DNA from: Kazachstania africana CBS 2517
Lineage: Eukaryota > Ascomycota > Saccharomycetes > Saccharomycetales > Saccharomycetaceae
Direction: 5' to 3'
Length of the DNA: 64,000 nucleotides
NCBI RefSeq assembly: GCF_000304475.1
Contig: NC_018941.1
Location: forward strand, 1,240,001 to 1,304,000
A program made the translations under genes and the position numbers. Shown piece by piece: positions 52,482-64,000 of the stretch (positions are counted from its first letter, which is position 1; each line of letters opens with the position of its first letter). The notes below the pieces were generated by a model. That model saw nothing but the letters and a program-made list of their open reading frames with translations. It did no database searches and was not told the origin of the DNA.

Positions 52482-54407
52482 ATGCGTTCGTCACTTTTGC
52501 TCATCTCGAATACTGCTGCTGAGGGTAGTAATAATAATAATAGTATTAATATTGATACTAATCGGGCCGTTAAAAAGGATATCAGTAGTAAACACAACCA
52601 CTCTTCAAGTTATCATTCTTCAACTACTTCTGATTTAAATAATTTATTGGATAATTTGTCGGTGCAGACTTCCATTTATGATATGAAGAACAATGATGCT
52701 TCTTTAACAAATAATAACGGTGCTAGTAATGCACAAAAGTCTATTACGGCTTTAAATGAAAACACAATAACTGGGAAAGATTTACAACAGCCATATCAAT
52801 TTCTTTTAAACGCAGCAAATGTTATAGATAATGCGCAAAATGATACTCAAAGCGTGTGGGGAAATGATTCATTGATACGTACGGACTCACATATTCTTAA
52901 TGAGAGTAATGCCAATGATGAAATAATATTAAACACACGTATCTCTTCTCACAAAAGTAACGTTATAAAAAAGCCACCAAGAAGAAGGAGAACGCAGGAT
53001 TCGATTAGAACCACTGCTATACCGTTTCAATCATCGAAGCATTCTCAAATAGTACCTTTCAAGCAAGGTGCTAATAAGAAAGGATCTATCAAATCATCAG
53101 CAAGCGCACAACGTGAGATCGACAGGATGAAGAAAAATTTACTATCGAAGAGAGATATTAAAAGAAAGCATAAGAAATTTTTAATGGACGATGATAATGT
53201 CATTATCGGTAACAAGATCACCGAAGGTCATGTAAATTTTATCATTGCTTACAATATGTTAACAGGAATAAGAGTTGCCGTCTCACGCTGTTCCGGTTTA
53301 ATGAAACCATTGACTTTAAAAGATTTCAAGTTTTATAAGAAACTAGCATTCGATTATCATGGTAATGAATTAACTCCTTCTTCTCAGTATGCCTTTAAGT
53401 TCAAAGACTATTGTCCTGAGGTGTTTAGAGAATTGAGAGGAATGTTTGGTTTGGATCCAGCTGATTATTTGGTTTCATTAACATCAAAATATATACTGAG
53501 TGAATTAAACTCACCAGGTAAATCAGGCTCCTTCTTTTATTATTCAAGGGATTTCAAATTCATTATCAAGACAATTCACCATTCTGAACATATTAGGCTG
53601 CGAAAAACATTGCAGGATTATTATAATCATGTAAAAACAAATCCGGATACTTTAATTTGTCAGTTTTATGGTCTACATAGGATAAAAATGCCAATCTCTT
53701 TCAAAAATAAAATTAAGCACCGAAAAATTTACTTCATTGTTATGAATAACTTATTTCCTCCACATCTTGACATGCACATCACTTTCGATTTAAAAGGTTC
53801 TACACTAGACCGCTATACCAAAATAAATGAGAAAGAATCAAAAGGTAATGACTCAAACTACAGACCAATTTTAAAGGATCTTAACTGGCTTGAATTGAAG
53901 GAAAAAATCAAATTTGGGCCTATAAAGAAGGAAAAATTTTTACTCCAACTACGAAAGGATTTAGAGCTACTGTCAAAGTTGAATATAATGGATTATTCAC
54001 TACTATTTGGCATTCACGATATGAATAAATACAAGCAAGAAAACGACGATGAATATGATGAAAATAACTTGATTGCATTTTATGACGATGATAATGTCAT
54101 TGTCCAGAATGAGCATGATAAAACTGAGGCGCATTTACAAACAATTCCTCTAAAACCACATTATTTTAAACAATTCGAAGGGGGTATAAGAGCCTCCAAT
54201 AAAAATAATGACAATGAGAATTTGATATATTATTTCGGAATAATCGATTGTTTGACACATTATTCGATTATCAAAAAACTTGAAACTTTCTGGAAAAGTT
54301 TAAACAATGATATCAACATAGTAAGTGCAGTGCCACCAAAAGATTATTCAAGAAGACTTTATAGGTTTATCGAAAATTCAATAGACACCCAAGATATAGA
54401 GAAATAA
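52482..54407 (+). CDS. MSS4: Phosphatidylinositol-4-phosphate 5-kinase Mss4
   Basis: Mss4 makes PI(4,5)P2 at the plasma membrane and is the only such kinase in yeast. The protein has 641 residues (S. cerevisiae 779), shorter mainly at the N-terminus, which is Asn/Ser-rich. The kinase domain starts near 245 ([24 protein letters not shown]). It contains [18 protein letters not shown], the DLKGST motif, MDYSLL (from Met503) and the IDCLTHY block. The activation-loop end DYSRRLYRF is at the C-terminus. All catalytic motifs are present. The gene lies far from UME6 across a 2.4-kb gap. Confidence 0.97.
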
Positions 54408-55179: not shown

Positions 55180-55374
55180 ATGCCTCCATATGGTCCACCC
55201 CATTATGGTCCGCCACATGGCCCTCCACCTCCAGGTCCAGGTTACTATCAGCCAGCTCCCCAGCCAGTTTATATCCAACAAGCTCCTCCTCCACCACCTA
55301 ATGACGGTTGCTGTGGACCTTGTTGTCAAATTTTGTGCTGTTGCTGTTTATTCGAAATATGTTGCGGCCCATAA
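55180..55374 (+). CDS. CYSTM-family small cysteine-rich protein (YDR210W-like)
   Basis: The 64-residue protein has a Pro/Gly/Tyr/His-rich first 40 residues (repeated PPHYGPP-type units) and a C-terminal cysteine-dense segment: CCGPCC, then CCCC and a final CC. This is the CYSTM layout, a short palmitoylatable membrane-associated module common to fungal and plant stress proteins. YDR210W is the gene after MSS4 in S. cerevisiae, which supports orthology. The ATG follows an A-rich leader. Function is unknown beyond plasma-membrane association of relatives. It is the last gene that keeps the chromosome IV order. Confidence 0.85.
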   Translation: MPPYGPPHYGPPHGPPPPGPGYYQPAPQPVYIQQAPPPPPNDGCCGPCCQILCCCCLFEICCGP

Positions 55375-56929: not shown

Positions 56930-58340
56930 TTGAATCTTGTTGAACCAAACCGAAGACGGTTAATGATTCCACAGGTTATGAGCGCTGGCGCATGCGGCGC
57001 TGTTGCAATTCCCATTAAGTTTGCGGGTTCCTCCAATTGTACTGAATGGTTAAGATTCCTTCAACAGCACTTACAGAGAACTAACATGTCCTGGTACCAA
57101 TTTGTTGAACAAGGCATTATTGCCAATATCTCTGAATTGAATCATTTCTTTCGAGGATAAAAATACTATTTTCGGTGTTTTTGATACAGCACTTGGTCAG
57201 TTAATTAATGATTGTACTATTGGTGAAGCTAAAACGAAGCGAGCATTTACTACAAACAACGCCTTGGAAGCGTGTCTACTACTGGTCTATTTCTTTAGTT
57301 AAGTGAAGAATATTCTAAAGCGACTGTTAGTATCCAATGTCACACTGCCATGAATTGACAAATTAAAAGTAAATCGTTCAAGGAAAGACGCATCTGGATA
57401 AGGACGTAGCATCCAGCTTCCTGAACACTACAAAAGAAGAAATTAAATTAATGAAGTTTCCCAATAATATCCATGCAGTCATTTATCAGAAGATTTTTAA
57501 TGAAAAGCTCGAAAGAGCAATGTCTCTCTTGATGATGGTCTCGTCTCCTTTAACTTTAAACAAAATGTTGGATTTGGCGATGAAACCTCTAAAAATTCCA
57601 GTAATGGAGAGAATTGAAAAATCAAGTGAAAAGTCCAACTCAAGTGCTTTTGCACTAATTGCCAATAAGTCAGTTAACGAAAACAAGAAAAAGACTTGTA
57701 AATGCGCTCACTTTATTAGCCAATGCGAAGAACTTCAAAAGCGCTTACCAGATGCCTATATCTTTGAAAAGTATGCTACCGACGAAAATCGAACAATGTG
57801 AATAATTCTTCTATAAAGCAAGGCACCAACAATTTACACAGATCCTCCTGGATTTCTATTGCTTCTTCTGATATAGATACTATGGTTCTTAACGCTGCTG
57901 TCACCAATATTAATGATGACACCATCTCAAACAATGCGTGGATTTTTGACACTGGATGTACTGGCCATATGTGCAATGACATTAAGCTTTTCAATAATAT
58001 TACATTGGGAAAATTTAGTACGTTAGCCACCTCTGGTGGCACTTTACCAATTAAAGGATTTGGTATCATCGACCTCGAAAAACTGGAACTTCCTCAGGTT
58101 TGCTATGTTCCTAAATTACCAATTAATCTTATTTCCATCATTCAGGCTACCGTAACTGCTAAGTTTAAATTCGTTTTTGACAAACATGGTATTACGCTCC
58201 TTGATTCAGCTAATTCTCCAATCATGAAAGGAAATATTGTAAATGACCTATATGGGATCGACGAAAGCAAATCATCTTTTACAGCTGTGACAGCTACACC
58301 TTCCGACAATTTAGCATCCCAGCCAATTTACACATCTTAA
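56930..58340 (+). mobile_element. Decayed Ty5/copia-like retrotransposon (gag and protease remnant)
   Basis: Three broken stretches in one direction make a retrotransposon order. Frames at 56930-57160 and about 57162-57300 look like a copia Gag (SSNCTEWLRFLQQHLQ). A frame at 57451-57801 ends near a Cys/His cluster resembling a spoiled zinc knuckle. A frame at 57798-58340 carries an aspartic-protease start (WIFDTGCTGHMCND) followed by LPINLIS and LYGID, as in the Ty5 polyprotein. Stops and frame changes separate them. Integrase, reverse transcriptase and RNase H are missing. Ty5 elements favour silent chromatin, which fits a subtelomeric site. Family call by motif memory. Confidence 0.8.
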
Positions 58341-60953
58341 AGACTCACAAGTTGGTGAAATAGGTGACTATGTTCGTAAATAATACATCTCGGCTTAAAG
58401 GGGCTGTTAAAATGTATCCAATCCTTAATGTATATTGAGAACAAAGAACAGAGCTAGGTCTTAGCTTCCGGTATTAATAAGAGTCAAATAACAGATGACT
58501 CCTCTCATTAAGAGCGATTCAATGTGCAAAGAAAGTCAATTTCTTTGAATACAATAAACTACATAAATACACATCAAATATCACTAGAAAGTATATTCGA
58601 TTATATTTGTCTCTATATAAGATAATTAAGGAAAGTCATCCTATTCATTCATGTTTGCGTCCTATTGTTAAACCATGTCTGCCTCCAATAGTAGTTCACC
58701 TACTAACGACTTTATTGTTGTGGAACCATGAACCGTCTTACGTTTGGTTCAACATTACTTGCAACTATTTACTAAAATTGCGCTTTTTGAAATGGTTCGA
58801 ATGTTTCATACCACGGGTATGAAGGGTAAACTTAACAAATGAAAGCAAAACATGAAAATTGCTGAAGTCTGCTGAAAGATAATGAAGCTTCAATATAGAA
58901 GCTGTGAAGACTATGGCAATCAGTCATTCTTATCAACAGAAGCCAATACCACCTGATTATATCACAAGAGACCAAAATGTCATTTAGTAATCCTAATGAT
59001 ATGTACTTTATAAGAAAAACTAAGTATACAAGTCAGAGCAGCTCTCCTTTGGAGATGTATGTACCATTTTTTTTTCTAATTATATATAAAAGAATAAGGA
59101 ATATAATTCTATTAGTACTTCACTAACGTCTAATTTTTTATCATATCCACGTCTAATGATTCTTCGCCCACAAGTAACTCTAAGAACCGAGTTGCAGAAC
59201 CAGTAACTATGTCAGGCACGGTTCAAACCTTTCGAAATAAATGAATGTGCTCCATAGTTATCTTCCTCAATTATAATTAATGCCCATTAGTACAAAGTGT
59301 AACTATCTCTCACTTTACATAGTACTATTTTAGGAACTTATACCGCCACAAGTGGTAGGGAATTCTATCGCGTAGGCTTTGATATCTCTATTTAGCGAGA
59401 TATACCAGTCGTTTGAAACTTGTTCTGATAAACGTATACTTCAAGGGGCATGTTCACAGTAACCGCAATGGCAAGTGTATATTTTGTTCAGATAATCCCA
59501 AAATTGGGTTGCATTTTATTCTTGCTAATTTGCAATCGACCATACAGCATCCTTGTGAGCTATATTTTCATGACAAACAACATCGAAATCTCGGACAAAA
59601 AAAGTTGTGTCAAATAAGATACAAAATTATCCCAAAAATGGGACTCATGATGTTTTGACGTTATCCCAGAGCCTTCAATTGACAATTTTAAGGAAGAAGA
59701 TTCAATCTAACATTTGTCAAAACATGAAACATAACAAGTACTAGCACTTTAGATACTATCAACCGAAATGTAACAAAACACAGTTGCATCGAGTGGAGAA
59801 ATATAACTACTTGGCCAGTAATGTAAAAGCAGACAATCATTTGCTCAGGAAATGGTTACACTGTGGCTCATTTTTTGGAGGGCAAACAAAAATGAAAAGA
59901 ATGCCCTTTTTAACTAAAGTGGATATATTCAAATTAATCTAATAACAGATGACGTAACTTCGAATTTAAGTAACTATGGATCTCTCGTAATATAACTCAT
60001 CACACTTTGTCCTTGCTAACAAGATTCTCCTTTTAAAGGCAATGAACTACTGACATAATTAGTTTTGACTAGTATATCCTTTTTCTTTAATGTAAACAAA
60101 CTACCTGATCATCATACTGTTATACGATACCTATGTGATCGGCTCTTCAACAACCTAACAATTAAAAAGGCGGATATACTGCAATTTTGGCGCCATATAA
60201 AAAAATTGTACTCACGACTTGGACCTGAGGAGTAAGCTTGCATTATTTTTGCACATTCGACTGTCTTTAATGAGCCACTGACAGCAACCTTTACAAAGTA
60301 TAATATTATAACGGATCTTAGTACAGCTGAAAGTGCTTGTCTATTTATCCTGACTCTACTTAGCACTCAGGATGACAAACTTATGATGAAGCCTGGACGT
60401 ACAAAGTTTTCTGGGTACGGTGTAACAGGTTATATAAGCCATAGGGTGACTTGAGAATTAGACAAGACTAAAGTCCTAAATAATATGAATTACCTGTCAA
60501 TGCATAAGTAACTGTACACTACCAAAAGAATATCGGTAACTGCACTGCAAGATGATATAAAATCACATATCTTATAATGAAGAAGGGAAGATTGACCAAA
60601 AGCATTTTACAGCTGGTTTGTATAAATTAATTCATCTTTTGGAGATATGATTGAATAAAAGCACTTTTTGACGTAAGGAAAAGTTAACAGCTACTTTCAG
60701 GAATATTCAAAGAAATCTGTCACAAATAAGAAAAGAGTTGTACTAATACCAATGTGACATACAGGACGCCCGGGGCTTTCCCTTGTGACAATACTGGAAC
60801 TGTAAATCACGTGGTTCCATGTGTATGAACCCGTAGTATATGATTACAGTCCAATATATAAGTCGAGAATGAACGCAATCCATTTTTACATTTCTCATAC
60901 CAGTTCCATATAGTTTTGGGCCAAAAAGAAGGAACGTGGTAAAATAGACAAAC
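58341..60953. other. Gene-poor region with decayed fragments
   Basis: This is 2.6 kb without an intact gene. From about 58390 to 58670 the sequence resembles an LTR or leader (TATATAAG-type box near 58614), followed by an 18-codon open frame at ATG 58675. From 59401 to about 60452 successive open stretches in three frames of the plus strand look like a broken gene (entered separately). No tRNA box pair was found. Confidence 0.45.
59401..60452 (+). pseudogene. Possible decayed coding sequence, unknown family
   Basis: Plus-strand open stretches follow each other with frame changes: 59413-59658, then about 59649-59942 (two stretches of about 36 and 61 codons split by one stop), then about 60059-60452 (about 58 and 72 codons split by one stop). 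The last part has protein-like composition, for example KKADILQFWRHIKKLYSRLG and KPGRTKFSGYGVTGYISHR. The early part has Cys/His pairs. I do not recognise the family. Open runs this long can occur by chance in AT-rich DNA, so this is tentative. Confidence 0.3.
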
Positions 60954-61949
60954 ATGAGGGTTCCACATCTATTATTAGGACTGCTCGCTATAGCCACGAA
61001 CGCCTCTTGCGATCACATGCAAGAGCCGGCATTGGCTAGAAATAACACTGACACAGCTAACTATAATAGGATTACCACCCTCCTACATGCAGGGTACGAC
61101 TTCGCTGACGCAGTAGCTGAAGTATGGCCGGGCCATAACTTTACTCTGAGTTCCACAGTTATAGCCAGGGGCACACCTGCAAGTGTAGCCAATGCGACGT
61201 TAGAAGCTATGGGCAGCAACTGGTACCTTCAAGGTGGGCCGGGGTACGAGGTCGATTTACCGGCTATAATCAACTTGGCCTGGGAATACGGTGAATCGGT
61301 GAGGACGCAGCATTCTTTGTCTAAACGAGACGCGGACGTGGCAGCAGGTGAGTACGCTAAGTCCCTGCTAGAAAACGTGATGGACCCAGCTGAACTCTCT
61401 CCACTGTCCCTTACAGTGCGTGACTCAAACACAGGCCAGTGTATGAATAGTTACTGGCGTAATTTTACTAACATGGTACAGCGCGTTTATGATAAGATTG
61501 ACCCCAAAATTATCGCTATTGCCAAGCAGTGGTCTTGGACGACATTTAAGACAGTGGCATGTGACCTACCTGGGTGGGTCAACATGGGTATATCGTTGGA
61601 GCAATATTTCCGGAGTGCATCACAGAAGGCCCAGTGTGGTGGCAGCACGACAATACATGCTCTTAAAGCACGAGATGGGAGCACATTACAATGGTGTGTG
61701 GGTGTGTCAGCATATAAAGTGGATGGAGAAAATTGTGACACGACAGCCAACTACGGCATCATCGCGGCAAACTTTGCCCAGTTGTCGGCCAAGGTTAATA
61801 GCATTGACGGGACGTCATGGTGCACTCATTTTGACCACTACGGTACATGGAGGATGGACGCCAGAGTAGCTCTGGTAGAGGAAATGTCCGACTGTGGACA
61901 GAATCTATGGGATATACCTTGTCCTGGCTACAAAGACGGCCGGTCTTAA
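60954..61949 (+). CDS. Secreted cysteine-rich preproprotein, killer-toxin-like candidate
   Basis: The intact 331-residue protein starts with a signal peptide (about 1-19, hydrophobic LLLGLLAIA). A Lys124-Arg125 dibasic pair after a Leu-Ser is a Kex2-type site that would separate a proregion from a C-terminal chain of about 206 residues. That chain has eight cysteines (163, 203, 228, 248, 261, 290, 314, 323). N-glycosylation sequons occur at about 16, 30, 62, 80 and 170. There is no GPI signal. One 60-base line (61201-61260) is 53% GC against 30% in a flanking line (62101-62160), which suggests transfer. Layout recalls K1/KHS-type yeast killer preprotoxins, but I cannot name a family. A secreted protein with another role is possible. 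Confidence 0.6.
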   Translation: MRVPHLLLGLLAIATNASCDHMQEPALARNNTDTANYNRITTLLHAGYDFADAVAEVWPGHNFTLSSTVIARGTPASVANATLEAMGSNWYLQGGPGYEVDLPAIINLAWEYGESVRTQHSLSKRDADVAAGEYAKSLLENVMDPAELSPLSLTVRDSNTGQCMNSYWRNFTNMVQRVYDKIDPKIIAIAKQWSWTTFKTVACDLPGWVNMGISLEQYFRSASQKAQCGGSTTIHALKARDGSTLQWCVGVSAYKVDGENCDTTANYGIIAANFAQLSAKVNSIDGTSWCTHFDHYGTWRMDARVALVEEMSDCGQNLWDIPCPGYKDGRS

Positions 61950-64000
61950 AGCCCAGATTGGCTGGGACGGTACATGACATACCACGCTAATCTTACAAAT
62001 CCCTAGAGCAAGTATGTTGATATTAAAAGACAAAAAAAGAGAAGGACGAATATTGATTTTTACTATATAGTTTAATACTGATTTCACACTTTAGTTGTTT
62101 GACTTATTACAAATAACTCTTAGATTTTACATTACTCCAATGTCATCGATTAGCAACTTCCCAAGAGAGGAAAAGACGACTGCCAGTCAATAACATTTCG
62201 TTTTTGCGGTAAAATTAGACAACTGGGTGAAGTAACTTTTCTTTATCAGTGTGTATTACTAATTGATGCTATATAAACAACTACAAAAGAAAAACATAGG
62301 GAGCCAGAACCTGCTCGAACTCTTGTTTTCCTCCGAGTATCTATACAGCTTTACACTCATTTTGGTTTTCAATAATCACTGCATTCCATCATGGTCTATT
62401 TTATCATTCTTCATGTTACGCTTTGTTTATTACCAAATTTATTGGTATTTGCCATGTTACCTCATGGCTATGTAATTTACTTATTCTAGAACATTTCAAC
62501 TTTTGTCATTCTAACCATCAAAAGGTTGAAATGTCAGTATAATGCCATTCCCAGAACCAGGTCTCTCTCAAAATTCCTATGAAGAAAATACATGTCTAAT
62601 TTCCATTCTCAAATTTTGTGACAACATTTCATTCCCACTTTTGTTGTAACATAAACTGGAACATTACAGCATTAACCTAAAAGTTGTTCGCATGTTTTTT
62701 GCACACCAAGACATCCACAACAAAACCGGTGCACCATTTGTTCAACTTATCAAATTTGAGATCTCAGAAGATTCAATATAGTTCTAGGATTAGCGAAGAC
62801 TTTTCATGGACGCAACTTTATCCATATTGAAGAATTCCACACAATAAAAAGCAATTCTTCATCACCTTTGTTCTTAATATTGTATTTACTTTACAACTTG
62901 ATATATAAAAGGATGAACTTTTGACAGGGGACGGAAACGTCCCGAGAACTATTGTTACCTTCGTTATTGTTATTGTTATTGTTAATAGTATTATTAGACG
63001 TGATAGACTTGTAAGAGTATAAGTTCTCGTTTTAATTCACGAAGTATCGTAACAAGTCGATACTCTTTTCTATGTAATGTACATAAAGTAACGAAGATAA
63101 TGAAGTAATCCAGAAAGTTCCGGTCTTATTTCATCTTTTATATAATAATTAGATTGGACCCGATTACATCAAGTATTGATTACTAGTGAAGAACGTTGGT
63201 GAAACTGTCTCATGTATCACCCTCACAGCCTCACCTGAGTGAGAGTAATAGAATCCGCAGTACTAGACTTCTACTCAAGGCTTGTCCTAGATTACAACCA
63301 GTACCTCCAATATTCATCCTGGATATCTTCTATAATCGAGGCTTAGCATCATCTAGCTTTGTCTGGCATCTTCAGCATGATAGGCTTTTAGCTGTGGTTA
63401 TACGATTAGATACGTTTCCGCCATTGTACTATTACAGCGGCTGTTAGCATATTGAACATATGTAGACCACTATTGTAAGTTCAATACGGTAACAAGACAG
63501 ATAATACAGAGAGAATATGACACGGCTTGTGTATATTCTAATTCGGGGACAGAGAGCTTGGAAATCGATCTGATCGTATAACTATAGCTAAAAGTGCTGG
63601 AAATGACATGATACTGACATTTCAATGTTCTAATAGTTAGAATGACAAATATGGAATGTTCTAGAAGGATTAAATTACATAATAATGAGATAATATGAGA
63701 AACAGTAAATTTATCGGTATTCAACATTACATAATAATATGGTGATGTGATAAAATCGATGAATTTATCGGCAGTAAATATTAGAGAATATTACAAATAT
63801 GATTATAGAACATGGAAAAATGTTACAAAGCAAAATATGTTGGAAATTGTATAAATACTCAGGTGAACACTGAAGTTTGATCAAAGTTTGTCACACTGTA
63901 TATTATTTATTGTATATTTTATTTTATATATAACCAGTGCATTATTTGGTAAAAACACTGATTAATAAGAATTATTTTAATTGTTTGACTGACATCCACA
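61950..64000. other. Gene-free right end, LTR-like AT-rich sequence
   Basis: This is 2.05 kb without a supported gene. A perfect hairpin GGGACG-GAAA-CGTCCC lies at 62928-62943, about 20 bp after a TATATAAAAGG box. A GTTATT repeat (62967-62984 region) follows. The last 500 bases have the AT-rich texture of yeast Ty LTRs (repeated TTACATAATAAT and AATTTATCGG), but no TG...CA-bounded unit could be fixed. Confidence 0.4.
62928..62943 (+). other. GNRA-type hairpin GGGACG-GAAA-CGTCCC
   Basis: A six-base-pair perfect stem, five of the six pairs G-C, encloses a GAAA tetraloop in surrounding AT-rich DNA. If transcribed on the plus strand, the loop would be a stable GNRA fold. No partner RNA family was recognised. 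Confidence 0.5.

Follow-up and report, generated by a model that had tools for sequence, protein, structure and literature searches.

A Klus/CSS2-type secreted protein gene between LTR parts in Kazachstania africana, probably captured as RNA

Klus (from the ScV-Mlus dsRNA), CSS2/YFR020W, KHR and Ksino are secreted preproproteins in which one or more dibasic sites stand ahead of a cysteine-rich C-terminal domain. CSS2, the product of the chromosomal gene YFR020W, is related in sequence to Klus, a toxin encoded on dsRNA (PMC13211469), and the two are 32% identical, with 44% across the C-terminal half (PMC5618225). A paper of 2026 describes the Klus-like toxin Ksino and names K. africana among the species with related genes (PMC12875307). 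K1-related genes are also known from the chromosomes of K. africana and other yeasts (PMC7888664). Six K. africana genes and pseudogenes were reported to have GAAAAA close to their start codons, and two non-subtelomeric genes of other species adjoin tRNA genes. From this 5' motif and the tRNA proximity, retrotransposon capture of dsRNA-borne genes was proposed; the term LTR is absent from the main text of that article. Killer satellites are described there as carrying 5' G(A)4-6, a toxin ORF and a central poly(A). For Ty1, retrosequences are known in which non-Ty RNA was reverse-transcribed with template switching (PMC7175516, PMC3522557). LTR-mediated retroposition by template switching is likewise known, and it can bring a coding sequence under another promoter (PMC5408686).

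Here we analyze a gene at one end of a 64-kb stretch of DNA from K. africana CBS 2517 (the window, C2:1240001-1304000; loci in the 11.13-Mb genome of 12 contigs are given as contig:kb). We suggest that this gene, the window gene, encodes a secreted protein of the CSS2/Klus kind and entered the chromosome as reverse-transcribed RNA between LTR parts. We give this reading a probability of about 0.7. Like the genes of PMC7888664, it belongs to a toxin-like family with several chromosomal copies. Those genes, however, encode K1-related proteins and are mostly subtelomeric; the window gene lies some 184 kb away from the end of its contig. Its features and those of the adjoining DNA are as follows.

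57882..58340, plus strand: relic ORF of Ty1/copia-type Pol (Pol_BBD domain)
60794..60935, plus strand: 5' part of LTR beta (beta positions 3-147), read as U3/promoter, ending 19 bp ahead of the ATG
60954..61949, plus strand: ORF of 331 aa, a divergent secreted preproprotein of the DUF6736 / CSS2-Klus type
60954..61010, plus strand: signal peptide, residues 1-19, with a predicted boundary
61323..61328, plus strand: Lys-Arg 124-125, a Kex2-type site that aligns with the KR of the nearest paralogue
61419..61421, plus strand: Arg 156, a lone basic residue where that paralogue has a second Lys-Arg in the alignment
61710..61871, plus strand: match to the DUF6736 core, residues 253-306 (NCDTTA ... 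GTW)
61950..62021, plus strand: GC-rich 3' untranslated stretch
62022..62040, plus strand: A-rich stretch that joins the presumed captured segment to the LTR and may partly be the LTR's own A-run
62036..62189, plus strand: 3' part of LTR alpha (alpha positions 305-459, to the terminal CA), read as R-U5, starting 87 bp past the stop
62395..64000, no strand assigned: further LTR pieces (inverted gamma 62395-62554, eps 62639-62917, gamma from 63595)
62929-63400: delta, repeated DNA and a putative LTR

The frame runs uninterrupted from the ATG at 60954 to the TAA at 61949, as an earlier sequence-only reading of this DNA had stated, and has no intron. Two further claims of that reading also stand: the N-terminal signal peptide is supported by a hydropathy maximum at residues 3-18, and KR 124-125 is the only dibasic site. 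It had placed all of eight cysteines past the Kex2 site. Eight do follow the KR (163, 203, 228, 248, 261, 290, 314 and 323), but there is a ninth, C19, which lies within the signal peptide or marks its end. Its five glycosylation sequons are confirmed in number, though N16 falls inside the signal peptide; three are in the propeptide and N170 is after the KR. Thus the window protein has a signal peptide and a dibasic site ahead of a cysteine-rich C-terminal domain, and it shares with Ksino a KR and eight cysteines. It is longer, with 331 aa as against 242 for Klus and 202 for Ksino (PMC12875307), and very divergent from Klus, CSS2, KHR and Ksino, from which it also differs in that its gene is bracketed by LTR parts. 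The structure models are weak, with pLDDT of 44.5 when the signal peptide is removed and 58.9 for the mature part, and structure searches with them gave no reliable match. In both low-pLDDT models the C-terminal domain is predicted to have the order helix-strand-strand-helix-strand-strand, which would be compatible with the sandwich described for Klus (PMC13211469). The window gene encodes a secreted, probably Kex2-processed protein of the CSS2/Klus (DUF6736) kind, and processing may also occur at Arg 156.

The gene had been called isolated and possibly of an undescribed family, and neither description is supported if isolated means without relatives. A genome search with Pfam DUF6736 (PF20521) gives 15 matches including the window gene, 13 of them above the cut-off of 27 bits and two of the 15 with an internal stop. 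HMM-level searches with Pfam and with profiles, which the sequence-only reading had advised, place the window protein near PF20521 as a divergent DUF6736 protein, though on its own it scores 25.3 bits, below the cut-off; in the genome search the value is 26.8 bits, or 27.2 when the neighbours of the frame are included. When the window protein itself is used as the query, ten other proteins of this genome match it at E<=10. Six of these matches have E below 1e-3 and the best has 2e-27, which is beyond what chance would give. The nearest paralogue, at C5:615 kb (C5 below), is 31-32% identical. All six of its cysteines pair in the alignment with 163, 228, 261, 290, 314 and 323 of the window protein. 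Past the KR, the window protein has a further pair, 203 and 248, which may form one more disulfide. Both proteins share the KR, and C5 has a second KR just ahead of its first cysteine. A profile of these two aligned over residues 207-323 (hhalign, probability 98.4, E 5e-15) with a profile of 12 others, of which nine are further members from K. africana and three are outside proteins (from Aspergillus, Penicillium and a metagenome). Against the three outside PF20521 proteins alone, the probability was 93.8 and E 2e-7. KAFR_0D04920 of the same strain, which has exactly the sequence encoded by the frame at C4:968 kb and the UniRef name 'Secreted protein CSS2', belongs to PF20521. By way of this protein and CSS2, the window protein shares a PF20521-type core with the Klus group. 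The window gene is therefore very probably, on these alignments, a distant member of the Klus/CSS2 kind, and its link to Klus runs through CSS2. In the same family, a subtelomeric row of DUF6736 relatives, one of them shortened, lies at C11:19-26 kb (L015), and a short frame near-identical to one in this row recurs at the start of C12 (L017:114-563).

Upstream of the window gene are a PIP5K gene (52482-54407) and then a CYSTM-domain ORF (55180-55374), which, by S. cerevisiae gene order, we take to be MSS4 and the YDR210W relative. An eIF2B-epsilon gene, presumably GCD6 on the same grounds, starts 663 bp beyond the window end, where there is also a Ras-family GTPase gene. Between the CYSTM ORF and the eIF2B-epsilon gene there are just the Ty/copia relic, LTR pieces, one tRNA and the window gene, and the sequence-only reading was right to speak of a gene desert. 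A protein search of the genome with the Pol relic found no other copy. Our LTR library of seven sequences, three of which were cut from the window from 60794 onward, matches the window only in that same stretch.

LTR sequence is fused to the presumed captured copy at both ends. The beta 5' part is ahead of the window gene and the alpha 3' part behind it, both on the gene's strand and from two different LTR families. Alpha is 459 bp long and has a solo copy at C8:609 kb with CTCAA on each side. Beta is a repeat of about 218 bp that we read as an LTR; its ends were set from three copies, at which no target-site repeat was found, and the library sequence was cut from the complete copy at C5. TATATAAG stands 99 bp ahead of the ATG, in the beta 5' part, and an A-rich stretch lies at +73 behind the stop. 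The DNA just upstream of the gene has six more copies in the genome, including ones immediately ahead of the C5 and C4 paralogues, and that just downstream has 20 more, including ones directly downstream of three relatives on C7 (C7a, C7b and C7c). The window unit has no 5-bp target-site duplication (its flanks are GACAA and ATAAC) and no G(A)4-6 ahead of the ORF. Taken alone, it is a good case for LTR capture but not the cleanest; C7c, C4 and C3:1213 carry the case.

When the seven LTR sequences were compared with 13 genes of the DUF6736 family, the following arrangements were found.

Window gene: beta 3-147, ORF, alpha 305-446
C7c: alpha 3-309, ORF, alpha 305-459
C7a: alpha 16-307, ORF, alpha 305-459
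C7b: alpha 176-307, ORF, alpha 305-459
C4: beta 11-163, ORF, beta 129/145-213, the whole unit inside an eps LTR
C5: beta 1-158, ORF, then a complete beta 348 bp downstream instead of a 3' part
C1: eps 2-246 up to 19 bp ahead of the ATG, ORF, inverted eps downstream only
C3:1150: eps ending 142-146 bp ahead of the ATG, ORF, inverted eps downstream only

Five of the 13 members have no upstream LTR half: C11:22 has alpha downstream only, and the subtelomeric C3:1321, C9:590, C11:19 and C6:17 have no match to the library used. A looser alignment shifts the upstream edge at C7c to alpha 325 and lets the downstream parts at C7a and C7b start from alpha 203. The stretch gained at C7a and C7b (alpha 203-304) does not exceed chance, as 109 and 104 of 500 shuffles score as high.

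The rule that follows from these units, an ORF inside an LTR, was then applied along the alpha copies and turned up a gene of a second family at C3:1213, which was thus located through its LTR and not through its protein. Here alpha 5-310 is followed by GAAAAAATTAGAGTTACG and the ATG of a secreted-type ORF of 147 aa that is then broken, belongs to another family than DUF6736 and has no Pfam match. The insert, of 992 bp and 48.6% GC, ends in an A-rich stretch and alpha 298-459. Thus at C7a, C7b, C7c and C3:1213 the alpha LTR is split by an ORF at 298-310 of 459. At C3:1213 the target-site repeat is ACAAC/ACAAC (5/5 bases), the left copy lying two bases inside the expected LTR start; at C7c the repeat is CCTTT/CCTTC (4/5 bases). 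Among 21 alpha 3' parts, five start at 298-305 behind an ORF (window gene, C7a, C7b, C7c and C3:1213) and 13 continue through the break point. C7:447 starts at 309 and C11:22873 at 292, neither with an ORF between LTR parts, and one is a stub (C2:1379). Two of the 13 run-through copies are split elsewhere, where the gap consists of gamma LTRs (one at C4:807, two at C3:564). C7a and C7b, two inverted DUF6736 genes at C7:450.3-453.1 kb (L028), encode identical proteins within one palindromic duplication that takes in their LTR flanks. They so count as one event, which leaves four alpha cases at most.

A tRNA gene lies downstream on the same strand at all nine LTR-associated units. From the stop the distance is 343 bp at C3:1150, 416 at C7b, 565 at C1, 600 at C4, 1,693 at C7c, 2,052 at C5, 2,335 at the window gene (a tRNA with an intron, L027:284-422, Rfam 48.7 bits) and 3,496 at C7a, on whose other side the tRNA of C7b is closer. 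At C3:1213 the tRNA is about 160 bp past the LTR end. These positions would agree with the targeting of Ty1-type elements to DNA upstream of tRNA genes. Five wider loci with a solo alpha LTR (L036, L047-L050) were compared, and in one of them the LTR is on the strand of the downstream tRNA, as against 9/9 units, a contrast of small numbers in which C7a and C7b are not independent.

The alternative that survives best, which we nevertheless consider unlikely, is that the family spread by ordinary DNA duplication and that LTRs landed alongside later by chance, those that gave a promoter being kept. It would account for the dense LTR pieces around the window gene, for the nearness of all nine units to tRNA genes, where LTRs crowd, for the subtelomeric members without library matches, for C7a/C7b, which are plain duplication, and for the two LTR families at the window gene. 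Chance, however, would not flank an ORF with both parts of one LTR in sense orientation and with the cuts inside a single 13-bp span, as is seen at C7a/b, C7c and C3:1213. The flanks also speak to this point. C7c and C7b have proteins of 28% identity, with upstream flanks of 86% and downstream flanks of 81%. Upstream flanks of 84% accompany protein identities of 29% between the window gene and C5, and of 13% (in one alignment) between the window gene and C4. Since the non-coding flanks are far more alike than the proteins, they are unlike relics of a shared ancestral duplication. Their high identity fits separate captures by the same LTR families.

The composition of the window gene is different from that of its surroundings. 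Its GC content is 49.7% (GC3 50.9%), and that of its 500-bp flanks is 34.2% and 33.6%; the sharp contrast noted in the sequence-only reading thus stands, with lower and higher figures than the 53% and 30% given there. We compared it with the 30 other window ORFs of at least 150 aa, leaving out the Ty relic and two antisense frames. Their mean GC is 36.0% and their maximum 41.4%, and the window gene is 5.3 s.d. out. In codon usage, a comparison that the same reading had advised, its log-likelihood per codon is -0.087, outside the range of the 30 ORFs, the lowest of which has +0.059. Its codon usage is foreign to these ORFs. The first 70 nt past the stop are 47% GC, as against a mean of 28.6% and a maximum of 44.3% in the 30 others. 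Among seven internal family members measured, with C7a left out, six have 47-61% GC there, the exception being C5 with 22.9%; two subtelomeric members have 40% (C6) and 21% (C11:19). These data bear on a second alternative, that the gene encodes a secreted host protein with a role in the cell wall or in signalling and not a toxin. The foreign GC and codon use, the many divergent copies near tRNA genes and in subtelomeres, and the kinship to Klus through CSS2 all argue against it, and we regard it as quite unlikely. The claim of a captured killer-type gene is supported by this same kinship and by the LTR pieces on both sides.

For the capture reading, we asked what donor would fit. G(A)4-6 stands ahead of the ORF at C1 (-18), C3:1150 (-17) and C5 (-16, four A) and, among the alpha loci, at C7c (-61) and C3:1213 (18 nt ahead of the ATG). 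It is absent at C4, and C7a and C7b have just GAAAGA. Ahead of the 30 other window ORFs, GAAAAA is found in none within 25 nt, in three within 60 and in ten within 130. Intact alpha LTRs have an A-run at the break point, with GAAAAA in 8/12 and GAAAA in 9/12, so the motifs at C7c and C3:1213 are not independent evidence. At C3:1150 the motif belongs to a purine run at some distance from the LTR edge, and C5 has it inside the aligned beta stretch. The clearest case of a donor motif is C1, where eps ends and GAAAAA follows. An A-rich tract, defined as 11/15 A within 166 nt past the stop, is present in 8/8 internal members as against 5/30 other ORFs, and in 4/4 members without an alpha LTR (Fisher p 0.003); around the break point, 2/12 intact alpha LTRs contain such a tract. 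A dsRNA satellite is a plausible donor, less secure than RNA capture itself since the GAAAAA motif is present in intact alpha LTRs too.

The best reading of these loci is that toxin RNA was captured by template switching of reverse transcriptase. Family kinship, LTR parts on both sides and the same break point at several loci are seen directly. Inferences that go beyond them are a sequence of steps, a U3/R boundary placed from the LTR break points, a possible dsRNA satellite donor, LTR-driven expression and a putative killing activity. The break point is 68 nt (C7c) and 80 nt (window gene) past a TATA-like box, distances that could suit the start of a yeast transcript. Ty replication normally yields first a short cDNA of U5 and R, which pairs with R at the RNA 3' end (PMC7175516). 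In the capture, this short cDNA (R-U5) would instead prime on the A-rich region behind the toxin ORF; the end of the strong-stop cDNA would be complementary to the alpha A-run and could therefore seat on this region. Reverse transcriptase would then copy the toxin RNA through to its 5' end, giving toxin-R-U5, and switch back to Ty RNA to copy U3. A G(A)n 5' end resembling the start of R would favour this switch. The product, U3-toxin-R-U5, would have both integrase ends and could integrate upstream of a tRNA gene, with the LTR promoter then in front of the toxin ORF. The beta and alpha parts of the window gene may reflect a switch between two Ty RNAs or later recombination. More tentatively, and with somewhat less than even confidence, we propose that Ty elements capture killer-satellite RNAs by mimicry and have yielded U3-toxin-R-U5 cassettes repeatedly. 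GAAAAA at the presumed R start of intact alpha LTRs is the motif that opens killer dsRNA satellites, and the central poly(A) of the satellites would seat the strong-stop cDNA, so that both strand transfers would be diverted through toxin RNA. The weakest alternative, recombination of a toxin cDNA into a resident chromosomal LTR at a short shared A-rich stretch, is suggested by the A-run at the alpha break point (GAAAA 9/12) and would leave 5-bp flanking repeats that look alike under either route, but it would need repeated recombination for the same outcome in two LTR families, and the beta LTR plus gene inside an eps LTR at C4 fits, without proving, arrival as a unit, which makes it very improbable.

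The toxin-like family is already known; the LTR-held gene design at several loci would be a new form of LTR-mediated gene capture. Different from Ty1 retrosequences, the cargo here is within the LTR, at the presumed U3/R boundary, and may have come from a dsRNA satellite. The LTRs that such genes split would be a direct structural record of events from RNA to chromosome, several in one genome, and the LTR/ORF junctions would indicate strand transfer as the step concerned. The cassettes would also account for the immediate gain of a promoter by a foreign ORF. If mimicry is true, there would be a recurrent route from a cytoplasmic RNA satellite to a promoter-driven, integrable nuclear toxin gene. 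In other yeasts, such genes could be sought by the rule of an ORF that interrupts an LTR where U3 meets R.

The second secreted-type family (C3:1213-1215 kb, L051), with no Pfam match in the two members scanned, is matched 14 times across the genome at E<=1, with E below 1e-4 in nine cases; one match, C3:1213, is inside an alpha LTR. It is also present at C5:509, C8:145, C2:625-626 and C8:676-678 kb and elsewhere, and the matches at C2:625 and C8:677 adjoin alpha pieces. Subtelomeric secreted-type ORFs without a Pfam match lie at L012:3037-3534 (minus strand) and L017:3868-4800; the latter has GAAAAA 8 nt ahead of its ATG and may be a published K1-like gene.
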